Source: Branchinecta lynchi (lineage: Eukaryota > Arthropoda > Branchiopoda > Anostraca > Branchinectidae). From it: DNA of 64,000 nucleotides. Below, in pieces: positions 35,236-48,913 of the stretch. The stretch covers positions 21,946,628 to 22,010,627 of the forward strand of contig JAKZAP010000010.1 in assembly GCA_023053575.1 (NCBI GenBank), written 5' to 3'. Position 1 is the stretch's first letter; each line of letters starts with the position of its first letter. Below the pieces are notes generated by a model that had not been told where the DNA came from, ran no database searches, and saw nothing but the letters and a program-made list of their open reading frames with translations. The translations under genes and the position numbers were made by a program.

Positions 35236-35866
35236 AGTAGTATATAAAGCCGGGTTCTACTCCACCCTCCCCCCAATTTCAAAACCCCATTTTAACATCA
35301 ATTTCTTAAACTTTAACATCCTTTTTACCAAATTACCCCCCTTTTTAAGAACATTTTTATTTTCTTACTTCCAAAATAAAGGATACAAGAAATGAGAATA
35401 TTACCCTTTACTACATATAAAATACTACAATATACTACTACTTCTTTTTTTTACATTTTTCATTTTTTATTCAAATATTACTGAGTAAACAGTTCTAAAT
35501 CCACATATGTTTCTTTGTTCTTGTTTTCGCGTACAATAGGCTGCAAAACCAGATTTTTCTTTAAAAGTAATTCGTTAGCAATGGCATTATATTTCTGTGT
35601 TATAAACAAATCACAGGGTTTGTCATTATGATTAATAACTACAACCAACTTATCACCATATTTTGTCTTAGCAATTCTCATTTTAACGATAGTATATTTC
35701 AATCCTAGAACTAGTTCTTCTTTCCTGATTGTCTCATTGTATTTATTCATTCTGATTGTATTCAAGACTTCCTTTGTGGACTCCATTTATTAGGGGATGA
35801 TTTTATTAAATAAAAATCCAGACTCACAAACTCACATACATATTTTTATTGATAATATCTAATGTA
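35236..35866. repeat. Polinton left terminal inverted repeat
   Basis: 631 bp, complementary to 48283-48913. It includes the whole 102-residue ORF and the last 14 codons of the major capsid gene, after which identity stops abruptly. Confidence 0.95.
35478..35786 (-). CDS. Unrecognised TIR-encoded protein, left copy
   Basis: 102 residues, reading outward toward the left end. Not recognised with confidence. The protein is mixed, with a strand-rich centre (KYTIVKMRIAKTKYGDKLVVV, then DLFITQKYNAIANELLL), which reminds me of small OB-fold single-strand DNA-binding proteins. That is only an impression; such a role would suit a TIR gene of a protein-primed replicon. The start ATG lies in the element-wide box ending CCCCTAATAAATG. 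Stop TAA at 35480-35478. The same protein is encoded at 48363-48671. Confidence 0.85.
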   Translation of the reverse strand: MESTKEVLNTIRMNKYNETIRKEELVLGLKYTIVKMRIAKTKYGDKLVVVINHNDKPCDLFITQKYNAIANELLLKKNLVLQPIVRENKNKETYVDLELFTQ

Positions 35867-37206
35867 GCTTTTCTTTCATAATATATAACACAGTAAATAT
35901 TATATGGTACAGGCTGAGCGTGTTTTAATGTTAAACTTATTTCAATATCAGCAGTTGTTCCATTATAAATATTTGACTCGTGTTTGGAAACATCGAAACA
36001 GAATAGTGGATATACTTCTTTAAATTCTTCTATACTAACAACACTACCAGTATCAAATGCTAATTGCTTATAGCCCAAATGTATGAACCTATTGTAAAGA
36101 TTTGAGTATTTACATTTCTCATCGCTAAAGTCGCATTTGAGTGGTTCTTCAGGATATTTATCCCCATTAATTCTAAGTTCTATGTCTGTTAAATTCATAT
36201 GATCAAACACCATATTATTCATTAATTGATTGTTATGCTTTTCATTTTTCTGTAACATCACAACGATTTTTGTAGGACTATTTCTCTCAGACACAACTTT
36301 CCAGGTGTGCTCCTTATTCTGACTAACATCACTTTTATAACTATTACATGCTTCCCACATCAGATTATGCTTTTTATCCTTAGCAAGATCCTTTTCTAAT
36401 TCACTCATCATTTCGATACTAGGAGCTACAATAGGGATCTTCCAGGATAAATACTCGATTACTACTTTGAAATTAGTATTTCCATTTCTTATAATCATGT
36501 TGTTATCATCATTTCTTCTTAGAAATAATTTATGCGATGCACCTCTGAAGAATCGTTTGTTTCCTTTCAGAAATCCAAACAATTCTGATAATGGTAAATA
36601 CATATTTACTAATTTACTGCTCTTTGTTCTGTTATATCTTTTTTCAAATCCTTTATTATAATTATTATTATTTCTCAAACTGACTGTTCCACCCCCTGCT
36701 GCAGCCCCTGCAGCCCCTGCAGCCCCTGCTACTACTGGAGTTGCAGTAAACGAAGCAATAACAGGATTAATTTCTTTTCCTTGATTATAATCCTTATACC
36801 AGAAATGATTTTTTGCTGCACTTCTAGAATAATCATCAGAGTATTCAATCAACTTTGTAACGGTAGTTGTAATACCAACATGATTAATTTTTTCAACCGA
36901 TTCATCGTTTATTACATATTCAGCGGTACTGAATAAATTAAATCCATTGTTCGTCAAAGTAGCAATATCGGTTGCAGCTATATTATCTCCATTTTCTTTC
37001 ACTATTCTTACACTAACATCAAGATAACTTTCACTTGGATAAAACCAGGAATCTAATTTCTTCGTTACGAATTCAAACTCTGATTTATTAGATACATTCA
37101 CATCTGTTTCTCGAATTTCTTTAAATTCGTATTTTACCACTGTATCATCCACAAGCGGTTCGTCAAATATATTCCATTGCGGACTGATAACTTTATTTAC
37201 TGCCAT
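35824..37206 (-). CDS. Major capsid protein (double jelly roll)
   Basis: 460 residues. The N-terminal region has the recurrent Polinton MCP pattern: a W-x-P-SE-YLDVSVRI strand, then LTNNGFNLFSTAEYVINDES, VEKINHVGITT and YSDDYSRSAAKNHFWY. Known family proteins form the icosahedral shell from trimers of double jelly rolls. Residues about 165-175 are a low-complexity alanine/glycine loop encoded by GCAGCCCCT-type repeats. Start in TTATATAAATG; 30 bp separate it from the next ORF. The last 14 codons lie in the TIR and are therefore duplicated at the right end without the rest of the gene. Confidence 0.9.
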   Translation of the reverse strand: MAVNKVISPQWNIFDEPLVDDTVVKYEFKEIRETDVNVSNKSEFEFVTKKLDSWFYPSESYLDVSVRIVKENGDNIAATDIATLTNNGFNLFSTAEYVINDESVEKINHVGITTTVTKLIEYSDDYSRSAAKNHFWYKDYNQGKEINPVIASFTATPVVAGAAGAAGAAAGGGTVSLRNNNNYNKGFEKRYNRTKSSKLVNMYLPLSELFGFLKGNKRFFRGASHKLFLRRNDDNNMIIRNGNTNFKVVIEYLSWKIPIVAPSIEMMSELEKDLAKDKKHNLMWEACNSYKSDVSQNKEHTWKVVSERNSPTKIVVMLQKNEKHNNQLMNNMVFDHMNLTDIELRINGDKYPEEPLKCDFSDEKCKYSNLYNRFIHLGYKQLAFDTGSVVSIEEFKEVYPLFCFDVSKHESNIYNGTTADIEISLTLKHAQPVPYNIYCVIYYERKATLDIINKNMYVSL

Positions 37207-37236
37207 TTATATAAGAAAGAAATTATTAAATAAAAC

Positions 37237-37593
37237 TTATTTCAGAATCTTTAATCCATTACCAGTCATTAACGTTTTGATCAAGTCCTGACTTCTTTGA
37301 TTTAAAATCCTTTTATTTGTACCGATAAGATCCTTCATCGATTTTTTGTTTCCAATTACATCAATGAGTTCCTTCTTGTTTACATTGATCAGATCTTTCC
37401 CATATTCTATTGCTCTGTTTTTCAACAACTCAAATCTCGGTTTAATAATATTATTATACATTGACATAGCCCCATCTTTTATTTGTTTTGCTGACGTTTG
37501 AAATAACTGGGAATTAACAATGTTTTTGAATACACTACCGATTCCACTTCCATACTGCTTTTTATAAAGTAATCGCTTATTATTAATCAACAT
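37237..37593 (-). CDS. Small basic virion-type protein, unrecognised
   Basis: 118 residues, lysine/asparagine-rich. It sits between the two capsid genes, where Polintons often carry minor virion proteins. Two GXG sites stand out: QYGSGIG at residues 13-19 and MTGNG at 109-113. The second fits the (M/I/L)XGX-G cleavage consensus of adenovirus-type proteases, which suggests a precursor trimmed at both ends. Start in CCTATAAATG. No enzymatic motif. A pVI- or pX-like role is inference only. Confidence 0.8.
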   Translation of the reverse strand: MLINNKRLLYKKQYGSGIGSVFKNIVNSQLFQTSAKQIKDGAMSMYNNIIKPRFELLKNRAIEYGKDLINVNKKELIDVIGNKKSMKDLIGTNKRILNQRSQDLIKTLMTGNGLKILK

Positions 37594-37625
37594 TTATAGG
37601 TAAATAATTTTATTTCACTAATCCT

Positions 37626-38348
37626 TTAAGCTTTTCTTAAATGCAGCACGTATCCAACGTTATCACCATTCAAATCGATAGGTCTTCCCAACTGATCAGT
37701 AATTGTCACTCTCAAGGAGTAAATAAAGTCTTTTGTATTAATAGGAAGGTAGATTAATTGTCTAGGATTCTCAACAATTTGACAACCCGGTTCTGTATTA
37801 GGAACAAATGTCCAAATGACATCTGATTTACTTTTGTTTACGATAGAACTGTTTACAAGAGAGCAGTGAATTTGTATTTTATCAACGCTTCTTGTTATAT
37901 TCGGAAGCTTTGTACCTTCATTGATTTTCTTAGATATCTCACTATCCTTCTCAAATCCTAAAATCTGACACAAGTCACTATTAAATCTAAACACATATTT
38001 TTCTTGTAATAGTATGACAAATCTCATAGATGCTGGATTGGATGAAATTACAATAGGACATTTATCTTTTGGGGTATCAAAATACTGACACAAAAAATAA
38101 TTCAAACAATCATCGTTATACATCCCATTAGGAATAGTAACATTCATCCATTCTGTTGCATTATTATCTTCACCTTTCCTGTATTGAAATGTATTATTTC
38201 CAAATTTATCACTTATATTATGCCATGAATACCACAAAGTACACTGATTCAAACCTATTTCATAATCCCAATTACGATTCAATTCGATTGGTTGACTAAA
38301 TGTTATATCAATGATACTTTCATTACCTTCAATGTTTAACAACACCAT
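37626..38348 (-). CDS. Minor capsid protein (penton-like, single jelly roll)
   Basis: 240 residues. The N-terminal block ELNRNWDYEIGLNQCTLWYS followed by WHNISDKFGNNTF and a W-NVTIPNGMYNDDCLN stretch is the recognisable pattern of the Polinton minor capsid protein, thought to occupy the fivefold vertices. Start in TTTCTAATAAATG, of which part overlaps the stop of the upstream 274-residue ORF; only 3 bp separate the two. Confidence 0.88.
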   Translation of the reverse strand: MVLLNIEGNESIIDITFSQPIELNRNWDYEIGLNQCTLWYSWHNISDKFGNNTFQYRKGEDNNATEWMNVTIPNGMYNDDCLNYFLCQYFDTPKDKCPIVISSNPASMRFVILLQEKYVFRFNSDLCQILGFEKDSEISKKINEGTKLPNITRSVDKIQIHCSLVNSSIVNKSKSDVIWTFVPNTEPGCQIVENPRQLIYLPINTKDFIYSLRVTITDQLGRPIDLNGDNVGYVLHLRKA

Positions 38349-38351
38349 TTA

Positions 38352-39176
38352 TTAGAAATAATTTTTATATATTGAATTGTAATTTCTCTTCGTAAGAAAT
38401 TTATTTCGCATTAACGAATCCAAAATATCAATAGCTTCATTTCTCACCTCATCAGATGTATTTCCGTTTACTCTGCTACCTATCAAAGTGTATAATTTTG
38501 AAATCATTTCATCACAGTTCATAAATATTCCAGTTCCTTTTTGTCTGATAAAGGGTATACTAGATTGAATTTTTCTTAATCTATCCTTATAGTCTTGTAT
38601 AAATAAAATAATTTTATCATACTTACTAGAACTATAACTTTTACTTTTCAGACCACCATAACTTTGACTTATCGGTGTTAATTCAGCCAAAGCATCTTCT
38701 ATATTCTCTGGGTTATCATAATAAAAATGAGGCATCTCAAAATATTCCCCTTCATATCTTCTATGATTATCTCTATATTTCACATTAAGTGCTTTTAACA
38801 ACTCTTTATCAACACCTTCATTCAGATCAACAACTTTTATACTTGTTGGAGATGCTTCTAAAGCGGTTGACTGCATTTCTACCCCTGAAACTGGAAGCTG
38901 ATATGGTTGATTAGTTTCACCTATCTGGAGAAGCCTTGTTCTTGAACTATCATCACCTTCCTGTAGTTTATTTATGATCATTTCAGTGTTCTCTTGTAAT
39001 TTTTTGATGGTATCTTTAGTGTTTTCTTTTTGTGCTATAATAACTGGAGCGTTTAATTCTGAAGCATATTCCCGAAATCCTGCCTTCTCCATCTCATTTT
39101 GTTGAACCTTGCTTCTCTGAATTTCTCTGTTCTTCACTATATCCGATAACATATCACTCAAGCGTCTTGAATCCAT
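38352..39176 (-). CDS. Unrecognised structural-type protein with coiled coil
   Basis: 274 residues. Residues about 1-75 are charged and helical (IVKNREIQRSKVQQNEM; KENTKDTIKKLQENTEMI), likely coiled coil. The C-terminal third contains QKGTGIF (around residue 213), near the adenain cleavage pattern, then a helical end. No enzyme motif. It lies between the integrase and minor capsid genes, so a virion scaffold or internal protein is plausible but unproven. Start in TGTATATAAATG. Confidence 0.78.
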   Translation of the reverse strand: MDSRRLSDMLSDIVKNREIQRSKVQQNEMEKAGFREYASELNAPVIIAQKENTKDTIKKLQENTEMIINKLQEGDDSSRTRLLQIGETNQPYQLPVSGVEMQSTALEASPTSIKVVDLNEGVDKELLKALNVKYRDNHRRYEGEYFEMPHFYYDNPENIEDALAELTPISQSYGGLKSKSYSSSKYDKIILFIQDYKDRLRKIQSSIPFIRQKGTGIFMNCDEMISKLYTLIGSRVNGNTSDEVRNEAIDILDSLMRNKFLTKRNYNSIYKNYF

Positions 39177-39192
39177 TTATATACAAGTAATT

Positions 39193-40179
39193 TTATTTCA
39201 TAATAAATTTTGAAAGTTCTTTTTCATAAAACCCTCCTTGAATTAATTCCCCACTTTTGTCAGATATTTCATAAGTAATGGGAATGGTAGGTCTGATGGT
39301 TGCTATCTGAAATACTTCATCCGTATAATTAGGTAAATATCCTTTATCGAAAATACTTTTTTCTTTTTTAATTCTGACTAAATCCCCTACTTTGACTTTG
39401 TGACTCTGTGAGTTTCCTGTGATTTTGTAGTCATCTACTGGAGGAAACAGAGCACTAAAAACCTTTTTCTGATTAACCTTTTTACTAGCATCAACTGGTT
39501 TCATTTGTATTGAGCGGTGATACGAGTTATTATAATTATTTACGAATACAGGTAAAATATCAATCCAATTAGTAGTGTTATTGTGAGTGAAATATTTCCA
39601 TAACTTTTCTTTTAGCGTTCTGTTGAATCGTTCTACAATTTGCGCTTTCAATTCGCTTTCAGATGCAAACCAGTGTATGCCGTTATTTTTCAAAAAAGTT
39701 TGAACATTTCTCATAACAAATTCCTTACCTTTATCAGTTTGTAGTTTCTTAGGAATTCTTTCTTTAAATATAACACTGAATGCTTTTATTATTTCAGCAC
39801 CCGTTTTGTCTTTCAGAGGGATACACCAAGCATATTTACTAAAGCAATCAATAACAGTTAAAATGTAATTTGTTTTATTATTTTCTTTTTTATATTTCTG
39901 CATGTCAACTAAATCAGCTTGCCATTGCTCATCAACATAGTGAACATACACTCGCCTCCTTTCAAAGTTATGATAGGAAGGTTTGTGTAACGTATACACA
40001 TTCTCATTTTGCAACACATTTTTTATTTTATCCTTGGAAACCTTAACACCATTTTCTTTTAATTTTCTGTAAATATCATCCACACCTGAATAATTAGAAT
40101 AATACGTCTTTAAAATATCTGTTTCTGCGTTGAGGTTTTTTTTAAAAAGCGATTTTTCCTCGATCCGCAAATAACACAA
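39193..40179 (-). CDS. Retroviral-type integrase, probably made by -1 frameshift
   Basis: DDE-family (rve) integrase that would insert the element with 6-bp duplications. Numbered from the codon at 40179, catalytic residues are D89 (QADLVDM), D149 (LQTDKGKEF) and E183 (KAQIVERFNRTLK). An N-terminal helical zone has YYSNYSGVDDIYRKL, and a C-terminal SH3/chromo-like part has VKVGDLVRIKKEK. There is no ATG at the 5' end: the first codon listed is TTG, and the frame opens only eight codons earlier, after a TAA. The 5' part overlaps the zinc-ribbon ORF, to which this frame is -1. The overlap holds T TTA AAA AAA (40146-40137), and integrase similarity starts just after it. Confidence 0.93.
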   Translation of the reverse strand: MCYLRIEEKSLFKKNLNAETDILKTYYSNYSGVDDIYRKLKENGVKVSKDKIKNVLQNENVYTLHKPSYHNFERRRVYVHYVDEQWQADLVDMQKYKKENNKTNYILTVIDCFSKYAWCIPLKDKTGAEIIKAFSVIFKERIPKKLQTDKGKEFVMRNVQTFLKNNGIHWFASESELKAQIVERFNRTLKEKLWKYFTHNNTTNWIDILPVFVNNYNNSYHRSIQMKPVDASKKVNQKKVFSALFPPVDDYKITGNSQSHKVKVGDLVRIKKEKSIFDKGYLPNYTDEVFQIATIRPTIPITYEISDKSGELIQGGFYEKELSKFIMK

Positions 40180-40277
40180 TTCCCTTTCAGCATTGGAACA
40201 TTATTTTTTTGTGACACTGCCTTAAACATTGATTCAGTGTCAGTGCTCTTTTTACATTTCATACAATAAATCTCCAT
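40110..40277 (-). CDS. Zinc-ribbon protein, 55 residues (DUF5679-like)
   Basis: A short ORF, missed by length-based calls, with two CX2C knuckles: YCMKCKKSTDTES (C5, C8) and CVICGSRKNRF (C34, C37). This matches the small zinc ribbon found in Polintons and large DNA viruses (DUF5679-type). Start ATG at 40277 in the consensus box TTTCTAATAAATG, with a 17-bp gap from the protease stop. The end KKTSTQKQIF is reached only if the ribosome does not slip; slipping -1 at 40146-40137 would fuse the ribbon to the integrase. Fusion would give an N-terminal zinc domain, as retroviral integrases have. Confidence 0.88.
   Translation of the reverse strand: MEIYCMKCKKSTDTESMFKAVSQKNNVPMLKGNCVICGSRKNRFLKKTSTQKQIF
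40137..40146 (-). promoter_or_regulatory. Putative -1 frameshift site, zinc ribbon to integrase
   Basis: On the minus strand, TTTAAAAAAA in zinc-ribbon frame reads T TTA AAA AAA, giving two overlapping slippery heptamers (T TTA AAA and A AAA AAA). A -1 slip enters the integrase frame exactly. I see no strong downstream stem-loop by eye. Confidence 0.6.
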
Positions 40278-40294
40278 TTATTAGAAAACAATTT

Positions 40295-40639
40295 TTATAA
40301 ACGAAAAGCTACCAACTTCAGTTTGCGCTTAATGTAGGAAATACAGTGAAGTCCACAGTTTAATTCATCTATATTTTGAACAGCAAGATTTTCATAAGCA
40401 ATTTTTTTCTTTGAAGTTTTTAGATATTTAACTATTTCTTTTCCCGGGGGAATACCGAAAGAATCAAAAAATTCTACATGGGGGTATTCAGGTAGATTAC
40501 AATAGGCAACCCAGTGAGTTCCAGGCATTCCGAGTTTATCATAATTAATGACACCGCATTCCGAATCGTTTATATGTTTGGGTAGCGTATCTAAAGAGAA
40601 CACACCTCTAAACTGTGGTATACTCCCTAATGCATCCAT
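40295..40639 (-). CDS. Adenain-type cysteine protease (C5), probably made by -1 frameshift
   Basis: The listed 114 residues contain the catalytic set of adenovirus-type maturation proteases: H42 (GTHWVAY), D59 (FFDSFG), Q88 and C95 (ELNCGLHC). It should process virion precursors. The first ATG (40639) has no consensus start box. The frame is open for at least 19 codons before it, and these encode a PLTNFDI stretch that fits the conserved N-terminal part of the family. That extension overlaps the AT-hook ORF, in its -1 frame, and begins right at A AAA AAC (40702-40696). A fusion product is therefore likely; translation from the ATG would yield a clipped enzyme. Confidence 0.92.
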   Translation of the reverse strand: MDALGSIPQFRGVFSLDTLPKHINDSECGVINYDKLGMPGTHWVAYCNLPEYPHVEFFDSFGIPPGKEIVKYLKTSKKKIAYENLAVQNIDELNCGLHCISYIKRKLKLVAFRL

Positions 40640-40662
40640 AATATCAAAATTGGTTAGAGGTC

Positions 40663-41232
40663 CTACTTTACTTTTGCTTCTTTTTTGATGTCCCCGTTTT
40701 TTGACTTCTTAGGTCTACCACGAACCCCATGACCGACAACTTTTTGCGTTCCAGGAAGTGTAAGCGCGCCACCTGTGTTGACATCATCGTTTTTTTCCTT
40801 CCTAGGCCTTCCACGTACCCCATTACCGGTAACTTTTTGTGTTCCAGGAAGTTTTAGCGCACCACCTGTGTTGGTCATTTTATCCATAATTTTCTTACCA
40901 GCGAATGAACCCAAAGCAGCAGCACCACTTGTTAAAGCTGCCTTACCAAGGGTAATTGCTAGCGGTATTAAAAATGGAAGTAATCCACCTTTTTGAATCG
41001 CTTCTCTCATCTGCTTGTATGATACATCAATATCACAACCCTTATTATTCATTTTACATGTTTCAATTTTATCAATTTGTCGTTTACTTAAAAGTAACTT
41101 GACTGGTTCTCGTTCATTTTGTCTACTATGACTAACACGTATCTGACATTTTTGTTTAGCATCAAAACATTTCTTCAGTTTTCCTTTCTGAAGCTTTGAC
41201 AAATAAACTGTATACTCCATTGTTTCAACCAT
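40663..41232 (-). CDS. AT-hook core-type protein with internal duplication
   Basis: 189 residues, basic. Features in order: KLLLSKRQIDKIE and DIDVSYKQMREAI, a pattern I associate with a common Polinton virion protein; QKGGLLPFLIP at about 80-90, opening a hydrophobic glycine/alanine segment to about 112; then a 31-residue tandem duplication (121-151 and 152-182), each half with NTGGAL, LPGTQKV and the AT-hook core RGRPRK or RGRPKK. AT-hooks bind the minor groove of AT-rich DNA. QKGG-L and NTGG-A resemble adenain cut sites. A DNA-packaging core protein is the best guess. Start in TTCCCTAATAAATG. Confidence 0.82.
   Translation of the reverse strand: MVETMEYTVYLSKLQKGKLKKCFDAKQKCQIRVSHSRQNEREPVKLLLSKRQIDKIETCKMNNKGCDIDVSYKQMREAIQKGGLLPFLIPLAITLGKAALTSGAAALGSFAGKKIMDKMTNTGGALKLPGTQKVTGNGVRGRPRKEKNDDVNTGGALTLPGTQKVVGHGVRGRPKKSKNGDIKKEAKVK
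40696..40702 (-). promoter_or_regulatory. Putative -1 frameshift site, AT-hook protein to protease
   Basis: The heptamer A AAA AAC, in frame as TCA AAA AAC at codons 177-179 of the AT-hook ORF. It is a canonical X XXY YYZ slippery sequence. Re-reading the final C puts the ribosome in the protease frame. Ten codons remain in the zero frame before TAG at 40665-40663. No obvious stimulatory hairpin. Confidence 0.62.
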
Positions 41233-41262
41233 TTATTAGGGAATTAATTTATCTTATAAAAT

Positions 41263-41886
41263 TTATTTACCAGCCATCATTTTTTCTATTCTGGTAACGA
41301 ATGGTTTGTCAACAGGTTTTAGCTCTAGCTCTAGAAGCCTTTTTAAAATATTTACTACTGCTCTTTCAATATTATCGATACGAGTTTTTTGACCAGCAAT
41401 CTTTCCTTCAATTATACCGTTATGGGTGTGTTGCCCCAGAAGCTTTTTGTCATAATCTAAAAGATTCATAGTTAACGTTGCTAAATTAACAGCATCATTT
41501 TTGTTTCTAGGGTTTTGAACATTTGTTATCAACTTGTTTTCAGCGTTAATCTCTTTATCATTAACTCGAACTATTTCTTTTACAAATAACCCTTTATCTT
41601 TGTTCCTTACCAACGAATTATCAGGAGAATTATCTATCGCAGTTAATCTGTTGATATCTTCGCTAAAATACTGATTTATCCCCACTTGTTGTGCGGTAAT
41701 TTCTTCTTTAAATTGATTCAGAATAATAGTCATGGATCTGAAACTAATAGCGTCCTGGTCAGCTTTCGCATCCCCTAACATAATAATTCTCTTATCTTGT
41801 AGGTTAATATTACCGTTGTCATCAGTAACTCTCTTTTCATTCGATTCGTTACTAACCTTTTTTCCAACACTACCAAATTTATTCAT
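41263..41886 (-). CDS. Fibre-like protein with two tail-fibre-type repeats
   Basis: 207 residues. Two similar segments, NINLQDKRIIMLGDAKADQD (27-46, followed by AIS) and NKLITNVQNPRNKNDAVN (117-134), fit the pattern N-L-x-x-x-x-I-x-x-(L/V)-x-x-(A/P)-x-x-x-x-DA found in trimeric phage tail fibres and fibre-like proteins. The region between and the C-terminus (GQKTRIDNIERAVVNILKRL, LELEL) look like trimeric coiled coil. I infer a virion surface or vertex fibre; function is not shown. Start in TATAATAAATG, 16 bp after the ATPase stop. Confidence 0.75.
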   Translation of the reverse strand: MNKFGSVGKKVSNESNEKRVTDDNGNINLQDKRIIMLGDAKADQDAISFRSMTIILNQFKEEITAQQVGINQYFSEDINRLTAIDNSPDNSLVRNKDKGLFVKEIVRVNDKEINAENKLITNVQNPRNKNDAVNLATLTMNLLDYDKKLLGQHTHNGIIEGKIAGQKTRIDNIERAVVNILKRLLELELKPVDKPFVTRIEKMMAGK

Positions 41887-41902
41887 TTATTATAGAAATA
41901 AA

Positions 41903-42580
41903 TTATCCGGTAAATTTTTCAAAGTTTTTCCTGTACTTAAGGGTTTTATCTTTTATTTTTAAATCTATGAAGAAAAAACCGTAGCCCTTGGTTGCAGTCT
42001 CGAATTGTTTGAGAAATTTTTCATCGTCTATACTGGATACATGGCTTTGTCTTATTAATTTTACTTCTTTTGGATTAGAACACTGAAAGAATGCAAAATA
42101 ATTGCACTGGAGCCTTACCACCTTTGGCGTTTTATGATAGCTCTGTGACAAGTAAATAATTGAAGCATTTTTCTTTCTTCCTCTTATGAATAAATCTTCT
42201 ATTTTCTTCTGGTCTTTTTCAGTGACAAAATCGTCAAAGATAATCAAGTTTTGGTACTCAGGGTCTAATTCGTCAACATCGACAATATCATCAAGATTGT
42301 TACTTACTGTTAAGACTTTCGATTTGCATTGTGACTCCAAAGTGGTTAAATTGGTTATAAGGTCTTGATATTTATCTTCTTCAAGATCTTTAGCATACAA
42401 GTATATTCGGTTGAAACAAAGATATTCATAAATTAAATTCAAAAGAAGGTTAGTTTTCCCTGTTCCAGAACTACCACAAATTAAGAGTCTGAATGGCCAC
42501 TGAGGTGCAAGGTCGTGCTTATTCTGATAAGTGTTCTTTTCGCTAAAATCATACACTTTGATTGGTGCCTTTTCATTCAT
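41903..42580 (-). CDS. Genome-packaging ATPase (FtsK/HerA, A32-like)
   Basis: 225 residues. Walker A GSSGTGKT at 36-43, Walker B NLIIFDD at 111-117, a polar sensor in IYLSQSYHKTPK, and basic RGRKKN that could hold the arginine finger. The N-terminal approach APQWPFRLLICG is usual for Polinton ATPases. Predicted to pump the linear genome into capsids. Start in TTCCTAAATAAATG. Confidence 0.95.
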   Translation of the reverse strand: MNEKAPIKVYDFSEKNTYQNKHDLAPQWPFRLLICGSSGTGKTNLLLNLIYEYLCFNRIYLYAKDLEEDKYQDLITNLTTLESQCKSKVLTVSNNLDDIVDVDELDPEYQNLIIFDDFVTEKDQKKIEDLFIRGRKKNASIIYLSQSYHKTPKVVRLQCNYFAFFQCSNPKEVKLIRQSHVSSIDDEKFLKQFETATKGYGFFFIDLKIKDKTLKYRKNFEKFTG

Positions 42581-42646
42581 TTATTTAGGAAGAATTTTTC
42601 ATTATAAGATTTACTTGAGTATTTTAAGTATATACTTGGATTTATT

Positions 42647-42978
42647 AAGTAGGTACTTGAAGTTTATAAGTAGGTACTTGAAGTTTTGAAGTAGGTACTT
42701 GATTTTTTTAAGTAGGTACTTGAAGTTTTTAAGTAGGTACTTGAATTTTTGAAGTAGGTACTTGAATTTTTTAAGTAGGTACTTGATTTTTTTAAGTAGG
42801 TACTTGAATTTTTTAAGTAGGTACTTGATTTTTTTAAGTAGGGACTTGATTTTTTTAAGTAGGTACTTGAAGTTTTGAAGTAGGTACTTGATTTTTTTAA
42901 AGTAGGTACTTGATTTTTTTAAAGTAGGTACTTGATTTTTTTTAAGTAGGTACTTGAAGTTTTTAAGTAGGTACTTGA
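42647..42978. repeat. Tandem array of a palindromic 14-mer
   Basis: Sixteen copies of AAGTAGGTACTTGA (one with GGGACTT), spaced by T-rich 5-9-bp linkers, period about 20-22 bp; a degenerate unit (AAGTATATACTTGG) precedes them. AAGTA..TACTT is an inverted repeat, so every unit can pair with itself. The array fills the whole gap between the ATPase start and the polymerase stop. It could act as a transcription terminator, protein-binding iterons or simply a minisatellite; the sequence does not decide. Confidence 0.93.
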
Positions 42979-42980
42979 AT

Positions 42981-45900
42981 TTAATGTTTATAACCTAAAG
43001 GTAAAGTGTGTATTTTATCGCTTGTTACTATCCTTTTATCATCCTTAGGATCTAACGCTTTTTTATTCTGTTCTTCTAGAAACATATTGTGCTTGTATGA
43101 TCTTAAGTTATACTGGGTTATAGAAAGGTTTTCCGTTTTACCAAACAGTACATCCTTATAGTTTTGAATCGTAATTTTATCTTTAACTATATTGGTTTTT
43201 ATTCCTTTCAGTTTTTTGCTAGCTTTTGAAGGGTCTTGGTTGTCCTTTAAATAAGCATATACTTTTGATCGTAATCCAACAAACTCTGTCATAACCTGTC
43301 CACCTAATTCATCTTTCATCATTCCTATCACTTTCTTATTTACACTAGGAAACCCATATGGATTATCTTTCGCATAATCAGATGTATCGAACCTCTCATT
43401 CAAATCCTGTTTGATATCTTGATAAAAATCTTCAGTTCTAATATCATATATGAAAGAATCAGTGTCCATATAACACAAATCAATTTTATCTCCATATTTA
43501 GGCTTCATATAATCATAATGGAATTCATACATCAATAACTTGGATAGTTCCAATACAGCAAAGCCGATATACATTGGTTTGTCTAGTTTTATCTTTTCCT
43601 TCGACATTCTTGCCACTGAAAAGTTTTCACTAAAAATTATTTCAGATTTAAAGTTGGGCTTCTTTATTATTTTTTCTCTTGTTTCATTATCCGTTATTAT
43701 TTCCATATCCGCTCGCTTCCTTACGTTTTCCATAGTTTTTCCAAAGCAAGCATTATTCATAAGCTTAAAGAAATCCTTTTCAAAATCATTTGTACCATTA
43801 GTTCTAAGTGCTGTGTTGTGGTCTATATATCCTTTTAAGTAAGCACTTTCAGTGAATCCTAGTATTCTGTGTACTCTCTTCAATATCAAACCTTTTTGTA
43901 AATAGAATTCTAGATTCCTGTGGTGAACTACATAGTTGGTTTTATCTAATACTGTGGTACATAGCTTACCGTTAAAGTGTTCGGGTGCTAATGGTAAATC
44001 CTTGTGTAATTCGTGTAGTTCTTTTGGATATTCTAAATCTACTTCATATATAGCACCTACATCTTGTCTCACCGACTTAATCGTAATCACCGACTTGATA
44101 TGAGTTTTTAGATGGTTGTAATACTCGATTGATTCGTATTCATTCCTTTCTTTCAAATCATCCGGTATGGAAATGAATTGGAAATCATTCGCTGGTAAAT
44201 TCTGCGACATTGCCCACCCATATAAATTATTAGCGTCTAAATACATTAAATAATTAGATGGTTTATGCTTATTATAATCACTTGTATATTTATTATTTGC
44301 TTTTGCGTATCTTTTTATACATTGGGATACACCACCTCTTATTCCTTTTTCTATAAAGGTATACATGTCTTCCTTTGAGAATAACGGTAAGTCTACTTTC
44401 GAATGCTTTAGGAAAGCATCCCATGTTAGTCCTGGAGCTGAGAAGTAATGAAGTGGATCCAGATCATAATTATGTATACAAACGTTCCTGAAATTCTCCA
44501 CAACATCTGATAGAATTAACACATCACTTTTTAGGTACAACTTGGTATAATCAAGTAAAGTTTCACAGTTAAATTGCTTCCATATAGATACCGCTCTTTT
44601 ATAATCACTTTTGTCAATACCTTTCCCCGTCAACCTAGAATAAAAGCTTTCTATCGGTGGTAACTTTGTACATTTCATTTTATCGAAACTATCTACGAAT
44701 TCATAGGGATACACCCCTTTTTTAATAATTTCTTTGAATTCATCGTCATTTTTGAAACTGTTAGATGTGAATTTGAAATTCTGTCTTAGATGATTACAAG
44801 GTACTTTGCAATCACATTTTGCTAAATTTGCTGATAGTTTGTCTAAAGATGAAGCCATAAATCTAATCGAATCTATAAACCGGATCTCATATTTTATTTC
44901 CGTATCCGTCTTTCTTATACTTATTGATTTCGAGAATGAGATGAAACTTTCTGCACTTTCAAAAATTCCGTTATCAGGTATCAATTCTCTAACAAATAAA
45001 TGAGAGTCATATTTAGATAAATTATGCATTACTACCGGGATATGCCTAGGAATCCTGTATTTCATATTACATTCAGCATGAGCAAATCCCCTATCTTCTC
45101 CTGTCATGTGGTCGTGATCAAAGTGAGGATTTTCAGTAATTTCAGTTGTACAGATGTGACAAGTCTTATTCATTAGATTTTTCCATTTTTCGGTAATTTC
45201 TGCATTGGTATAAGTATGGTTTCTTTGTCTGCTTTCATATTTGTTTGCAATTTCTGTGGATACTTTTGTAACGGTTTTAACAAAATGTTCTGCAGCGTCT
45301 TCACCGAAGTAATCGTAGTATTTGTTCTGGTTTGTATCAAAGGAACAGCATACCTGAAATGCGTAAGCAAATGGTTTCTGTTTGGCCACTTTTATTGTTT
45401 TCTTCCCGTTTACCTGATTGTATTCTTCGTTATAAGACTCAAAGTCTGCTATTATGCAATAATGTACTTTCATTTGTTTTGCAATATTTTTATATTGTAT
45501 ACTTGAACCTTCAGGAGGCATTATTATATCAGGATCTTCGCAATTATTTTTACTTTCATGTTTTTCAAAGTGTTCTTCTTTTGTAAAATGCCTTCCGCAA
45601 AAAGTGCATAGGTATGTCTTTGTTTTATTTTTAGAGATTTGACTACCAACTAATCTGCTCAGATCCTTTACCAGTACATAATGATTATCGAAATATAATA
45701 AATTAATAACATGTTTAGCTGTTTTGCCATTGATTGTACTTTTTAGTATATGACTTCTGATAATTTTCTCTTTTTCAATTTGAAATAAACAAATCTTAAT
45801 GTTGTATCTATTTTCAAATTTGTGTATATCTTTAGTATCCATTGGGAAGTTGGTAACCCCTTCGAAATCAAATTCGTTCTCATATTGTTTATATTTCGAA

Positions 45901-46292
45901 ATTCTTTCCGGATGATCCTTAGCTGGATGTAGATTTGCTAAGATGGACCAAAGAAAGCATTTTTGATCTAAATTTTTTATATTTATGCACGCTTTTTTAT
46001 TTTTTACGAAATCTGGCAGTATTTTAAACGTTCCTCCCATGTAAGATTCTATTCGTGTCATCCTATAATCAATTCCTTCATACCGACTAAATTGTAGCCC
46101 AGATCGAGGGGTATTACTTAAAGAACTAAGTCTCTTGTTATTATCATCCAAATGATTATGAGTGAGAATGCTATTTTTATTTAAAATCCAAGAAGTACTG
46201 TTGTAATATACTACTACTTCTTCATCATTCTCCTGTCGATGGAAAATAACCCGAGTTACAAACTGAACTCTATATTGATTTATTTCGTTCAT
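42981..46292 (-). CDS. Protein-primed family B DNA polymerase
   Basis: 1103 residues from the first ATG. In order: C2H2-like finger CTFCGRHF...H (229-251); Exo I IADFESY (D283, E285); an inserted endonuclease VII/HNH-like zinc module CHICTTE...FDHDHMTGEDRG..HAEC (378-408); Exo II HNLSKYDSHLF; Exo III YLKSDVLILSD; motif A YLDANNLYGW (D686); motif B KLMNNACFGKT (K843); motif C CYMDTDSF (D943, D945). The ATG lacks the TAAATG box. The same frame is open for 61 codons upstream, reaching the end of the SAP ORF, where an A8 run separates the two frames by +1. The real N-terminus is therefore probably longer. Confidence 0.95.
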   Translation of the reverse strand: MNEINQYRVQFVTRVIFHRQENDEEVVVYYNSTSWILNKNSILTHNHLDDNNKRLSSLSNTPRSGLQFSRYEGIDYRMTRIESYMGGTFKILPDFVKNKKACINIKNLDQKCFLWSILANLHPAKDHPERISKYKQYENEFDFEGVTNFPMDTKDIHKFENRYNIKICLFQIEKEKIIRSHILKSTINGKTAKHVINLLYFDNHYVLVKDLSRLVGSQISKNKTKTYLCTFCGRHFTKEEHFEKHESKNNCEDPDIIMPPEGSSIQYKNIAKQMKVHYCIIADFESYNEEYNQVNGKKTIKVAKQKPFAYAFQVCCSFDTNQNKYYDYFGEDAAEHFVKTVTKVSTEIANKYESRQRNHTYTNAEITEKWKNLMNKTCHICTTEITENPHFDHDHMTGEDRGFAHAECNMKYRIPRHIPVVMHNLSKYDSHLFVRELIPDNGIFESAESFISFSKSISIRKTDTEIKYEIRFIDSIRFMASSLDKLSANLAKCDCKVPCNHLRQNFKFTSNSFKNDDEFKEIIKKGVYPYEFVDSFDKMKCTKLPPIESFYSRLTGKGIDKSDYKRAVSIWKQFNCETLLDYTKLYLKSDVLILSDVVENFRNVCIHNYDLDPLHYFSAPGLTWDAFLKHSKVDLPLFSKEDMYTFIEKGIRGGVSQCIKRYAKANNKYTSDYNKHKPSNYLMYLDANNLYGWAMSQNLPANDFQFISIPDDLKERNEYESIEYYNHLKTHIKSVITIKSVRQDVGAIYEVDLEYPKELHELHKDLPLAPEHFNGKLCTTVLDKTNYVVHHRNLEFYLQKGLILKRVHRILGFTESAYLKGYIDHNTALRTNGTNDFEKDFFKLMNNACFGKTMENVRKRADMEIITDNETREKIIKKPNFKSEIIFSENFSVARMSKEKIKLDKPMYIGFAVLELSKLLMYEFHYDYMKPKYGDKIDLCYMDTDSFIYDIRTEDFYQDIKQDLNERFDTSDYAKDNPYGFPSVNKKVIGMMKDELGGQVMTEFVGLRSKVYAYLKDNQDPSKASKKLKGIKTNIVKDKITIQNYKDVLFGKTENLSITQYNLRSYKHNMFLEEQNKKALDPKDDKRIVTSDKIHTLPLGYKH

Positions 46293-46458
46293 TCGCCGCT
46301 GTATATCTGCGAAAGTAAAAGCAATAAGAGTATGCTCGTCAACTCCATTACCTTGAACTGAAACGTTTACAGTGAATATATTCTCACTTTCGCTAAAAAT
46401 AGTAGGCTGCTGTTCTTCTTCCGTTCTAAATACATGATCAGGAATTAATTTTTCTTCT

Positions 46459-47058
46459 TTAATTTTTTTTCTTATTTATGAAGAGAGTTGATAAATCGAC
46501 TACTTTCTGTCTACTGTTATCACGTCTTTCTGTTTGATCTCTTATGATATCTCTATTTTTCTGTACGGAATCTTTATGTTTGGTAATAATATTATTATAG
46601 TATTCTTCAACCTTTTGTATGACTTCTTCTCGGTTTCCGCGAGTTGATAGGTTCTTGTTTTTCAGAAATTTCTTTAATTCGCTTGTCTCTTTTTCTTTGT
46701 TATCATTGTATTCTTGTTTTAGTTTTGTAATGGTGATATTATTTTCTCTTATCTCATCTTCCAGAATGGTTCGTAATCTCGGTTCTGGTTTGTAGTCGGA
46801 TGGTCTGTTCTTATTATGAGTTCTTTCGTTTCTGCGTTCAATTTTAATTTTATCTTCAGCTATCAAAATATACTTATTAAGATGGTTTATTATATTATTT
46901 GTTATTTCATGTTTCTTAGCTCCATTTGTTTTGATTTTATTAATTTTCGCATAAGTCCGCAGTTCATTATATGTGTATAGCGATAATCTTTGTATAACCG
47001 ATTTGTTGTTCGATATAACCTTTTTACAAAGCTGAATAACCTCTGCAGTATTCATCAT
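46459..47058 (-). CDS. Two-SAP DNA-binding protein, possibly the polymerase N-terminal part
   Basis: 199 residues, strongly charged. Two SAP-like helix-turn-helix motifs: YNELRTYAKINKIKTNGAKK (29-48, continuing to about 60) and ELKKFLKNKNLSTRGNREEV (127-146). SAP motifs bind AT-rich DNA. A long helical linker joins them, and the C-terminus is RRDNSRQKVVDLSTLF plus a lysine run. Start in CCCCTATTAAATG. It ends at 46459 inside a 17-nt overlap with the open polymerase frame, across A8 (46470-46463). It may be an independent protein or the N-terminal region of a longer polymerase polypeptide. Confidence 0.82.
   Translation of the reverse strand: MMNTAEVIQLCKKVISNNKSVIQRLSLYTYNELRTYAKINKIKTNGAKKHEITNNIINHLNKYILIAEDKIKIERRNERTHNKNRPSDYKPEPRLRTILEDEIRENNITITKLKQEYNDNKEKETSELKKFLKNKNLSTRGNREEVIQKVEEYYNNIITKHKDSVQKNRDIIRDQTERRDNSRQKVVDLSTLFINKKKN
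46463..46470 (-). promoter_or_regulatory. A8 run at the SAP/polymerase frame junction
   Basis: Eight A residues lie in the only stretch where both frames are open (46459-46475). The polymerase frame is +1 relative to the SAP ORF. Either transcriptional/ribosomal slippage or a one-base change in the homopolymer would explain it. Weaker evidence than the two -1 sites. Confidence 0.4.
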
Positions 47059-47453
47059 TTAATAGGGGAACATTTTTATTAATAAATTTCTCAGTCTGCG
47101 TTTTCTCAGCCGTAAAGAAAAGCACTGGTTTCAGTATGCGTTTCACAGAGCAAGCGCTGTCTATATTCTCTCCAATCAGTCAAGAAAGTTTCAGTAGAGT
47201 TCCGTAGATAGCATATGTGTTTTGTGTTTCACGGAGCAAGCGCTATCTAGATTCTCTCCGATCAGTCAAGAAAGTTTCAGTAGAGTTCCGTAGATAGCAG
47301 ATGTGTTTTGTGTTTCAAGGAGCAAGCGCTATCTAGGTTCTCTCCGATCAGTCAAGAAAGATTCCATACAGTTTAGCAGGTGGCGGATGTGTTCCGAATC
47401 GCGAACCTTTCATTCAATCAAATAATTTCTGAAACAATTTTATTACATAATAA
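47059..47453. promoter_or_regulatory. Divergent intergenic region with three 86-bp repeats
   Basis: The only long divergent spacer in the element. From about 47136 to 47393 an 86-bp unit occurs three times, with GAGCAAGCGCT starting at 47148, 47234 and 47320, plus CTCTCC.ATCAGTCAAGAAAG; the third is more diverged. It sits between the leftward SAP/polymerase genes and the rightward membrane-protein gene, so a control region or origin is possible. Confidence 0.75.
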
Positions 47454-47876
47454 ATGGAAGAATTAGAAAAGAAAATGTATGTTTACCGTCGCAGTTACAA
47501 GTACTACAATCGTATAAGTAACAGCTTACTTGTATCCAAATTCCTCTTTTCGGCAGCAGGAATGTCTGCGTTTCTAGTGCTACCTTTAGCTTCTTTAAGT
47601 TTGGGTGCTGTTATCATCGAAATAATTGAAAAGCAGTTAAGCATTGCTGATAGAAAAGCAGAATTTAGGACAAATTACAATTTTTATACTGAGTTGTTCT
47701 CAATGCTAAAATGCGGACAATTAACAATTGAGGAGGTAATTCAGAGAGAAACAGAGATGCGTAAAACCTTTCGATTTTTTCCTCGCGAAAAATACATGAA
47801 ACAGGTTCGCTTGAACGGTTATAAATATTGTAAGAACGAAACTATCAAAATACAAGAAAATTTACCAAAAATATAA
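47454..47876 (+). CDS. Small membrane protein with two predicted helices
   Basis: 140 residues, the only single-copy gene reading rightward. Basic N-terminus with a tyrosine-rich segment (YRRSYKYYNRISNSL), a hydrophobic double helix at about 24-58 (FLFSAAGMSAFLVLPLASLS, LGAVIIEII), then a charged C-terminal part with NFYTELFSML and FFPREKYMK. Similar proteins are, to my recollection, common in invertebrate Polintons. The helix-2TM-helix plan is reminiscent of SLATT-type proteins, but I cannot show homology. Start in CATAATAAATG. Confidence 0.8.
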   Translation: MEELEKKMYVYRRSYKYYNRISNSLLVSKFLFSAAGMSAFLVLPLASLSLGAVIIEIIEKQLSIADRKAEFRTNYNFYTELFSMLKCGQLTIEEVIQRETEMRKTFRFFPREKYMKQVRLNGYKYCKNETIKIQENLPKI

Positions 47877-47907
47877 AATTTTTGCAAAACCTCCCACCCC
47901 AGACTTT

Positions 47908-48117
47908 GAAGATTGAAGATGTTTATTTGTCGTCTTATTATTTTTTATGGTGTGTCTGGGGTGCCCCGTGAGGGGAGGAAACCCTCTGAGTTTTTTGTTC
48001 GCCATCCTCACCATTAACCTCAAGTTGATGGCGGGATTCGATCTCACGACATCATTGATGAAGTGGTTGATCTAAGACGTTGCAACATCTTAGACCACTA
48101 CACCAACGGGGCCTGCA
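47908..48117 (-). mobile_element. tRNA-derived SINE inside the Polinton
   Basis: On the minus strand the head GGCCCCGTTGGTGTAGTGG holds a box A (TGGTGTAGTGG), and GAGATCGAATCCCGCC is a box B. The body has TTTCCTCCCCTCACGGGGCA, and the tail AAACATCTTCAATCTTC points left. No clear target duplication. It occupies the non-coding gap between the membrane-protein gene and the right TIR, so it need not harm the element. Confidence 0.7.
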
Positions 48118-48282
48118 GAATCTCCGCAACGAAATATTTTGTGATGTGAATACTAATGCGCAATGAGATTTTCTGTTTTTTGTTGCCCTAAGAGCTTTAT
48201 CAGTACTAGAGGCAGAATTGTGGGTACCTCGAGGAGATTTTAATTTGATGATGTGATGAATATCGATTTGGATTTTTTTTTT

Positions 48283-48913
48283 TACATTAGATATTATCAA
48301 TAAAAATATGTATGTGAGTTTGTGAGTCTGGATTTTTATTTAATAAAATCATCCCCTAATAAATGGAGTCCACAAAGGAAGTCTTGAATACAATCAGAAT
48401 GAATAAATACAATGAGACAATCAGGAAAGAAGAACTAGTTCTAGGATTGAAATATACTATCGTTAAAATGAGAATTGCTAAGACAAAATATGGTGATAAG
48501 TTGGTTGTAGTTATTAATCATAATGACAAACCCTGTGATTTGTTTATAACACAGAAATATAATGCCATTGCTAACGAATTACTTTTAAAGAAAAATCTGG
48601 TTTTGCAGCCTATTGTACGCGAAAACAAGAACAAAGAAACATATGTGGATTTAGAACTGTTTACTCAGTAATATTTGAATAAAAAATGAAAAATGTAAAA
48701 AAAAGAAGTAGTAGTATATTGTAGTATTTTATATGTAGTAAAGGGTAATATTCTCATTTCTTGTATCCTTTATTTTGGAAGTAAGAAAATCAAAATGTTC
48801 TTAAAGAGGGGGATAATTTGGTAAAAAGGATGTTAAAGTTTAAGAAATTGATGTTAAAATGGGGTTTTGAAATTGGGGGGAGGGTGGAGTAGAACCCGGC
48901 TTTATATACTACT
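48283..48913. repeat. Polinton right terminal inverted repeat
   Basis: 631 bp. Inner edge at 48283, where a T run replaces the capsid-gene sequence present on the left. Outer end ...TATATACTACT. Confidence 0.95.
48363..48671 (+). CDS. Unrecognised TIR-encoded protein, right copy
   Basis: Encodes exactly the same 102 residues as 35478-35786, here on the plus strand, again reading outward. The upstream box ending CATCCCCTAATAAATG is also identical. Perfect identity suggests recent insertion or homogenisation of the TIRs. Confidence 0.85.
   Translation: MESTKEVLNTIRMNKYNETIRKEELVLGLKYTIVKMRIAKTKYGDKLVVVINHNDKPCDLFITQKYNAIANELLLKKNLVLQPIVRENKNKETYVDLELFTQ

Follow-up and report, generated by a model that had tools for sequence, protein, structure and literature searches.

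How an integrase comes to be expressed when its reading frame offers no ATG before the conserved N-terminal part of the protein is the question raised by this locus. The window, i.e., the whole stretch of 64,000 nucleotides of Branchinecta lynchi DNA analysed here, carries a complete Polinton/Maverick element with terminal inverted repeats (TIRs) whose 632-bp arms are 100% identical, AGT-repeat ends and a 6-bp target duplication (Table 1). The AGT end motif of Polintons is named in passages of PMC8097293. Of the genes of a Polinton/Maverick, the element has the rve integrase, a double jelly-roll capsid protein (PF21738, E 8.6e-27) and an A32-like ATPase (PF04665, E 1.5e-13), and an adenovirus-type protease is recognised through a 114-aa alignment, at 49% identity, with the protease portion of a relative, P0005. 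One further ORF is presumably PolB-like, a name given from its motifs, and gave no polymerase family match in any library searched. Its residues 364-410 form an endonuclease VII-like stretch (Pfam E 3.6e-06), upstream of which lies a zinc-finger-like stretch with weak matches. The two copies of the ORF located inside the TIRs both read outward, towards the ends of the element.

The element has a recurrent start box. TAA stands immediately 5′ of the ATG at 12 of the 15 ORF starts checked (the TIR ORF being counted twice), and the exceptions are PolB, the protease and the integrase. At six of the 12 boxed starts, the box reads TAATAAATGG, which occurs nowhere in the window outside the element. 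Such TAA-ATG boxes recall poxvirus late promoters. Provided that the box starts the expression of each gene, the protease and the integrase, which lack it, would need their upstream neighbours.

The upstream neighbour of the integrase is a zinc ribbon ORF which, as a first, sequence-only reading had claimed, carries the start box of the element. The integrase frame opens after a TAA at 40203-40201 and extends over 335 codons down to 39193. Its first ATG lies behind D89, which we take to be the first acidic residue of the DDE triad, and the absence of an ATG before the conserved N-terminal part, also claimed by that reading, is confirmed. The TTG that it gave as the first codon of the integrase is indeed listed at 40179, but is simply the first start allowed by the gene finder. 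Where the two overlap, the codons of the ribbon are CGC TTT TTA AAA AAA ACC, so that two X XXY YYZ heptamers, T TTA AAA at 40146 and A AAA AAA at 40143, stand in the 0 frame inside the overlap with the −1 ORF, and moving one base back on the run enters the integrase frame, as had been noticed from the letters.

Table 1. Features of the element and of its two enzyme junctions, in window coordinates
Feature	Position	Strand	Remarks
Complete Polinton/Maverick	35236-48913		Ends AGTAGT...ACTACT; 6-bp direct repeat CCAATG on either side
102-aa ORF, two identical copies inside TIRs	35478-35786 and 48363-48671	- and +	Own start box each
Integrase open frame (rve)	39193-40200	-	-1 relative to ribbon; PF00665 E 6.3e-15; PFV integrase 3oyi_A E 4.6e-11
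First integrase-frame ATG	39901-39903	-	Four codons behind D89 of QADLVDM
Zinc ribbon ORF, 55 aa	40110-40277	-	CX2C...CX2C, 0 frame; PF18930/DUF5679 E 6.4e-11
Slippery run T TTA AAA AAA	40137-40146	-	Two overlapping heptamers; run read from sequence
Start box CTAATAA	40278-40284	-	Directly 5′ of ribbon ATG
Protease (adenain-like) open frame	40295-40708	-	-1 relative to p189; opens after stop 40711-40709
189-aa ORF (p189)	40663-41232	-	0-frame partner of protease; AT-hook-like basic tail just under Pfam cut-off
Slippery heptamer A AAA AAC	40696-40702	-	In frame in p189
Polymerase-like ORF, 1103 aa	42981-46292	-	PolB-like motifs by eye

The claim that a second enzyme shows the same arrangement also stands, the protease lying in the −1 frame relative to p189 with a canonical heptamer in the overlap. 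The first ATG of the protease frame, at 40639, sits inside the conserved domain and is preceded by the conserved LTNFDI, and the alignment with P0005 begins at LTN. The Peptidase_C5 family matches P0005 with a Pfam E of 0.00056, just under the cut-off, and the protease ORF of the window with an E of 0.055 only; the longer protease frame has no Pfam match at E 0.01. p189 itself contains two near-repeats of the form GGALxLPGTQKVxGxGVRGRPxK, the second of which is located immediately before the slippery heptamer.

This anatomy suggests programmed −1 ribosomal frameshifting that yields a ribbon-integrase fusion, a reading which we regard as probable. The integrase would possess no usable AUG of its own, and ribosomes would start at the boxed ribbon ATG. 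Most of them would complete the 55-aa ribbon, while a minority would slip one base back on T TTA AAA AAA into the integrase frame, producing a single ribbon-integrase polypeptide of ~356 residues. p189 and the protease would be linked likewise at A AAA AAC. The joining of ribbon and integrase by a spliced intron can be envisaged in a eukaryotic host whose genome is large (575.7 Mb, 216 contigs), but the ~30 bases that separate the run from the conserved YYSNYSG leave no room for an intron while keeping both domains. This explanation, extremely improbable, was rejected on account of that distance.

The heptamers by themselves are merely suggestive. In-frame X XXY YYZ heptamers occupy 16 of the 3364 codon positions of the element outside both overlaps, which sets the chance of finding one at ~0.13 in the ribbon overlap (~29 codons) and ~0.06 in the p189 overlap (~14 codons), and the chance of finding them in both at ~0.01. 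Downstream RNA structure accompanies most eukaryotic −1 sites. Pseudoknot-free folding 3′ of the two slippery sites revealed no strong structure relative to shuffles (z −1.09 and −0.59), and this weakness counts against frameshifting. The like design of the second enzyme counts for it.

Junctions across the host genome were counted between the fixed flanks AAAAATCGC...CTCRACGCA, at the run length of the window and at one base either way. The length of the window, with its heptamer and frame relation, is found at 606 of 643 junctions; 21 are one base longer, placing ribbon and integrase in one frame, and 16 are one base shorter. The predominance of out-of-frame junctions also counts for frameshifting. 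The pattern that the sequence-only reading had named as its refutation, an integrase starting at its own downstream ATG behind a run that is not conserved, did not turn up in close relatives. Searches with the DUF5679 family and with a one-frame relative agree with these counts, most scored ribbon frames being 55 aa long and a few 356 aa. The A AAA AAC of the protease junction is kept in all 36 of the out-of-frame copies defined below and in 99 of the 100 listed of 621 genome places, the hundredth resembling a chance match, and p189 has a stop just before the heptamer in 2 of 58 copies.

On a tree of 59 rows, the 17 in-frame copies require 13 changes, and starred branches force at least seven of these. 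Their clustering is not significant (61 of 500 shuffles score as low). One group of eight rows contains six in-frame copies (support 92, not starred) and may represent a small in-frame sublineage. Through most of the element family, the out-of-frame state is what has been inherited, and for the most part the one-frame copies resemble scattered mutations of the homopolymer. When the genome was searched with the relatives P0070, P0068, P0120 and P0002, only matches resembling the family of the window appeared among the 103-120 scored in each search out of ~1800-2400 candidates; a diverged family could hide among the unscored candidates.

The frame change could also be made by RNA polymerase rather than by the ribosome, through the addition or loss of an A in the T5A8 run, such that part of the mRNA would carry both domains in one frame. 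With 13 T/A bases the run is long, and 37 of the 643 junctions depart from its length; yet the protease site, with the same frame relation, has just six A, which is short for polymerase slippage. Transcriptional slippage is possible for the integrase and unlikely for the protease, and as an account of the locus it appears decidedly improbable.

Selection was followed in copies drawn from 68 loci, 64 of which were left after removing three repeats and L001, the window's own copy. The counts use the 58 copies within 8% of the window, 36 of them with its run length (the out-of-frame copies); of the six others, five differ from the window by more than 19% and one by 9%. In-frame copies are over-represented among these 64, the loci having been picked by likeness to a one-frame protein, a bias of which the genome-wide junction counts are free. 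Between the ribbon stop and the first integrase ATG lie 200 bases with no in-frame ATG. Shared variants (present in at least three of the 36 out-of-frame copies) comprise, in this stretch, 11 synonymous and 3 nonsynonymous changes when read in the integrase frame; the two wrong frames, at the same sites, give 1 to 13 and 0 to 14. This ratio indicates that the 200-base stretch is translated in the integrase frame. The shared variants probably arose in copies that later multiplied. Among singleton variants of the out-of-frame copies, no constraint is apparent 5′ of the first ATG (ratio 1.42), and 3′ of it the lack of constraint is less clear (0.61). No Met precedes the catalytic Asp in 31 of the 36 copies, the five others owing theirs to indels (three) or to V to M changes (two), and the first ATG itself is kept in 22, being replaced by CTC in 12, TTC in one and a gap in one. 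From the run onwards, 29 of the 36 copies have an intact integrase frame (of the others, six have an indel and one a stop), and in 33 the ribbon frame stays open as far as the run.

Constraint on the ribbon frame is thin in the out-of-frame copies, where shared variants at 40277-40147 amount to 4 synonymous and 3 nonsynonymous, and this too counts against frameshifting. In the integrase frame 5′ of the run, the one shared variant of this set is a stop at 40182, present in 16 of 36 copies; since this stop is common (27 of all 58), the upstream open reach of the integrase frame in the window is meaningless. When all 58 copies are taken together, variants at 40200-40147 are 6 synonymous to 1 nonsynonymous in the ribbon frame and 1 to 6 in the integrase frame, six of these seven coming mainly from one five-copy haplotype in which four copies are in-frame. 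The short stretch from the run to the ribbon stop looks unconstrained in both frames of the out-of-frame set (ribbon 1 to 3, integrase 2 to 2).

These patterns bear on two other explanations. In the first, a disabling frameshift would have spread, leaving copies that are dead for integrase and are moved in trans by in-frame copies. In its favour, 21 in-frame copies exist, the eight-row group of the tree contains six in-frame copies (support 92), and singleton variants show no constraint before the first ATG; on the other hand, in-frame copies are scattered overall (17 rows, 13 changes) and similar in frequency to the opposite indel (21 vs 16), the shared variants of out-of-frame copies show strong integrase-frame constraint, and P0121, P0002 and P0068 have the same layout in other records. 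The scatter and the shared-variant constraint led us to reject this explanation, which is very improbable.

In the second, the run would be incidental, and leaky scanning or reinitiation would let the integrase be translated independently, starting at a non-AUG codon (ACG 40107 or TTG 40179). ACG 40107 follows the ribbon stop immediately, and its presence in 34 of the 36 copies counts against frameshifting; TTG 40179 is kept in 35. Initiation at the ACG would give M-YYSNYSG, near the start of some relatives (P0018 begins M-YYDP), and the integrase-frame constraint after 40109 fits such a start equally well as it fits frameshifting. Yet P0002 has L and P0068 has V at the position of this ACG, four ribbon-frame AUGs lie upstream of it, six relatives hold ribbon and integrase in one frame, and the like layout at the protease is not explained by a non-AUG start of the integrase. 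For TTG 40179, the integrase-frame shared variants at 40176-40159 (1 synonymous to 5 nonsynonymous) also speak against initiation, a weak point drawn from five to six copies, one or two of them out-of-frame. Altogether, independent non-AUG translation seems unlikely.

The relatives were studied among the best 120 of 5334 matches. The search that the sequence-only reading had proposed, for ribbon and integrase in one frame, was positive: six of these 120 (P0037, P0070, P0078, P0095, P0102 and P0107) combine the ribbon (PF18930) and rve in one protein. Two others appear to share the layout of the window. P0002 (67% identical) begins MWLQEKSFFKK and P0068 (51%) begins MWLKKESFFKK, starts that are compatible, given codon degeneracy, with a −1 reading of the ribbon end C-G-S-[KR]-[KR]-N-R-F-L-K, and S-F-F-K-K is kept in both. 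The 11-residue motif, whose last position P0068 misses, is allowed by 33 of 2,000,000 random peptides, and a codon-test scan of 41,693 positions recovered P0002 together with two chance matches inside other integrases (P0041 and P0050). The heptamers of P0002 and P0068 are deduced from protein sequence. Some sources write M for every start codon, and the initial M of both proteins may represent any start codon. P0121, from another record, is a ribbon 94% identical to that of the window with the same end point. The residue that follows the conserved F of the ribbon is V, I or M in the one-frame relatives (L in none of six), whereas in the out-of-frame group it is L in the window and P0121, and only L or S is possible in P0002 and P0068.

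Further searches extended this set little. Scans of viral_contigs with the integrase and with alignment A1 brought up one weak locus (L069) and no useful relative, two contigs matched a degenerate DNA pattern of the ribbon's end, the ribbon protein query found one relative, and residues 1-48 of P0068, used as a query, matched only P0068 itself and brought no further −1 arrangement. In all 17 loci examined out of the 32 from genome_contigs, more distant ones on contigs filed under bacterial bins (L072-L088), no CX2C...CX2C ORF stands just upstream of the integrase. This absence counts against frameshifting, and since no ribbon lies upstream in these loci, the putative ribbon −1 device is specific to one lineage and not general.

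At least 20 of the best 120 relatives have their integrase at the C-terminal end of a longer one-frame protein, where it follows the protease in 6, a phospholipase-like Parvo_coat_N protein in 8, the ribbon in 5 and both of the latter in 1, all lower limits under a strict rule. Parvo_coat_N-integrase fusions in one frame are seen in P0031, P0035, P0055, P0061, P0078, P0091, P0099, P0106 and P0112 and at locus L083; P0078 holds the phospholipase-like protein, the ribbon and the integrase in one chain. A [MIL]-x-G-x-G site, which we take to be the adenain-type cleavage consensus, occurs between protease and integrase in all six scored fusions (P0005, P0049, P0050, P0057, P0059 and P0079), against a background of 3 sites in 34,322 integrase residues. 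These boundary sites look as if the protease frees the integrase in protease-integrase fusions. No such site was found near the junction in the six ribbon-integrase proteins, and for this reason the ribbon probably stays attached to the integrase. The one-frame relatives and the kept run support the earlier idea that the ribbon is a frameshift-attached domain; the frameshifting itself, and the service that the ribbon would render to the integrase, we infer. A wider proposal can be put forward tentatively, namely that Polintons of this kind might, in the manner of retroviruses, produce their enzymes joined to the C-termini of upstream proteins. Some lineages would do so through one-frame fusions (protease-integrase with an adenain-type site between the two, phospholipase-like protein-integrase, ribbon-integrase), and this one through two programmed −1 frameshifts, which would fix how much enzyme is made relative to its partner.

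Programmed −1 frameshifting is a familiar device of RNA viruses and retroelements, and that of retroviral Gag-Pro-Pol uses heptamers such as A AAA AAC. Like Gag-Pro-Pol, the element has its protease and integrase in the −1 frame behind small upstream proteins, at canonical heptamers. Unlike Gag-Pro-Pol, it is a DNA element with two separate junctions, folding showed no strong structure downstream, and in place of Gag a zinc ribbon and a basic 189-aa protein precede the enzymes. Its rve core, layout, ends and target duplication are those of Polinton/Maverick and adintovirus integrases; however, in the relatives seen, the integrase is a separate ORF or part of an in-frame fusion, whereas here it stands behind a slippery run. 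The window integrase (39193-40179, minus strand) shows no C-terminal chromodomain match, as is also the case for P0001 and P0002, while many relatives have one.

Within the same broad element group, PMC11071296 proposes a −1 slippery site for the penton genes of adintoviruses, close to their 3′ end. That site is likewise hypothetical; it is program-predicted and would give an alternate penton C-terminus, and the passages that describe it do not mention integrase or protease. The literature searched, i.e., passages of PMC11071296, PMC8097293, PMC10120064 and PMC12721341, most subscription papers lying outside the search, contains no description of −1 frameshifting of the integrase or protease in this group, for which it offers only the computed guess about penton genes. 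No paper in the library searched names the DUF5679 family. The ribbon had also been likened to the HHCC domain of retroviral integrases. That domain is a three-helix domain with an H-H-C-C zinc site, while the ribbon is a CX2C...CX2C DUF5679 with no PDB sequence relative at E 0.1, and the parallel is only an analogy.

If the proposed mechanism is true, two frameshift-linked enzymes in a DNA transposon or virus would represent a separate arrival at the enzyme dosing of Gag-Pro-Pol. A possible truncation of such integrases by gene finders would also be accounted for, and a role as an integrase-attached zinc domain would suggest itself for DUF5679.
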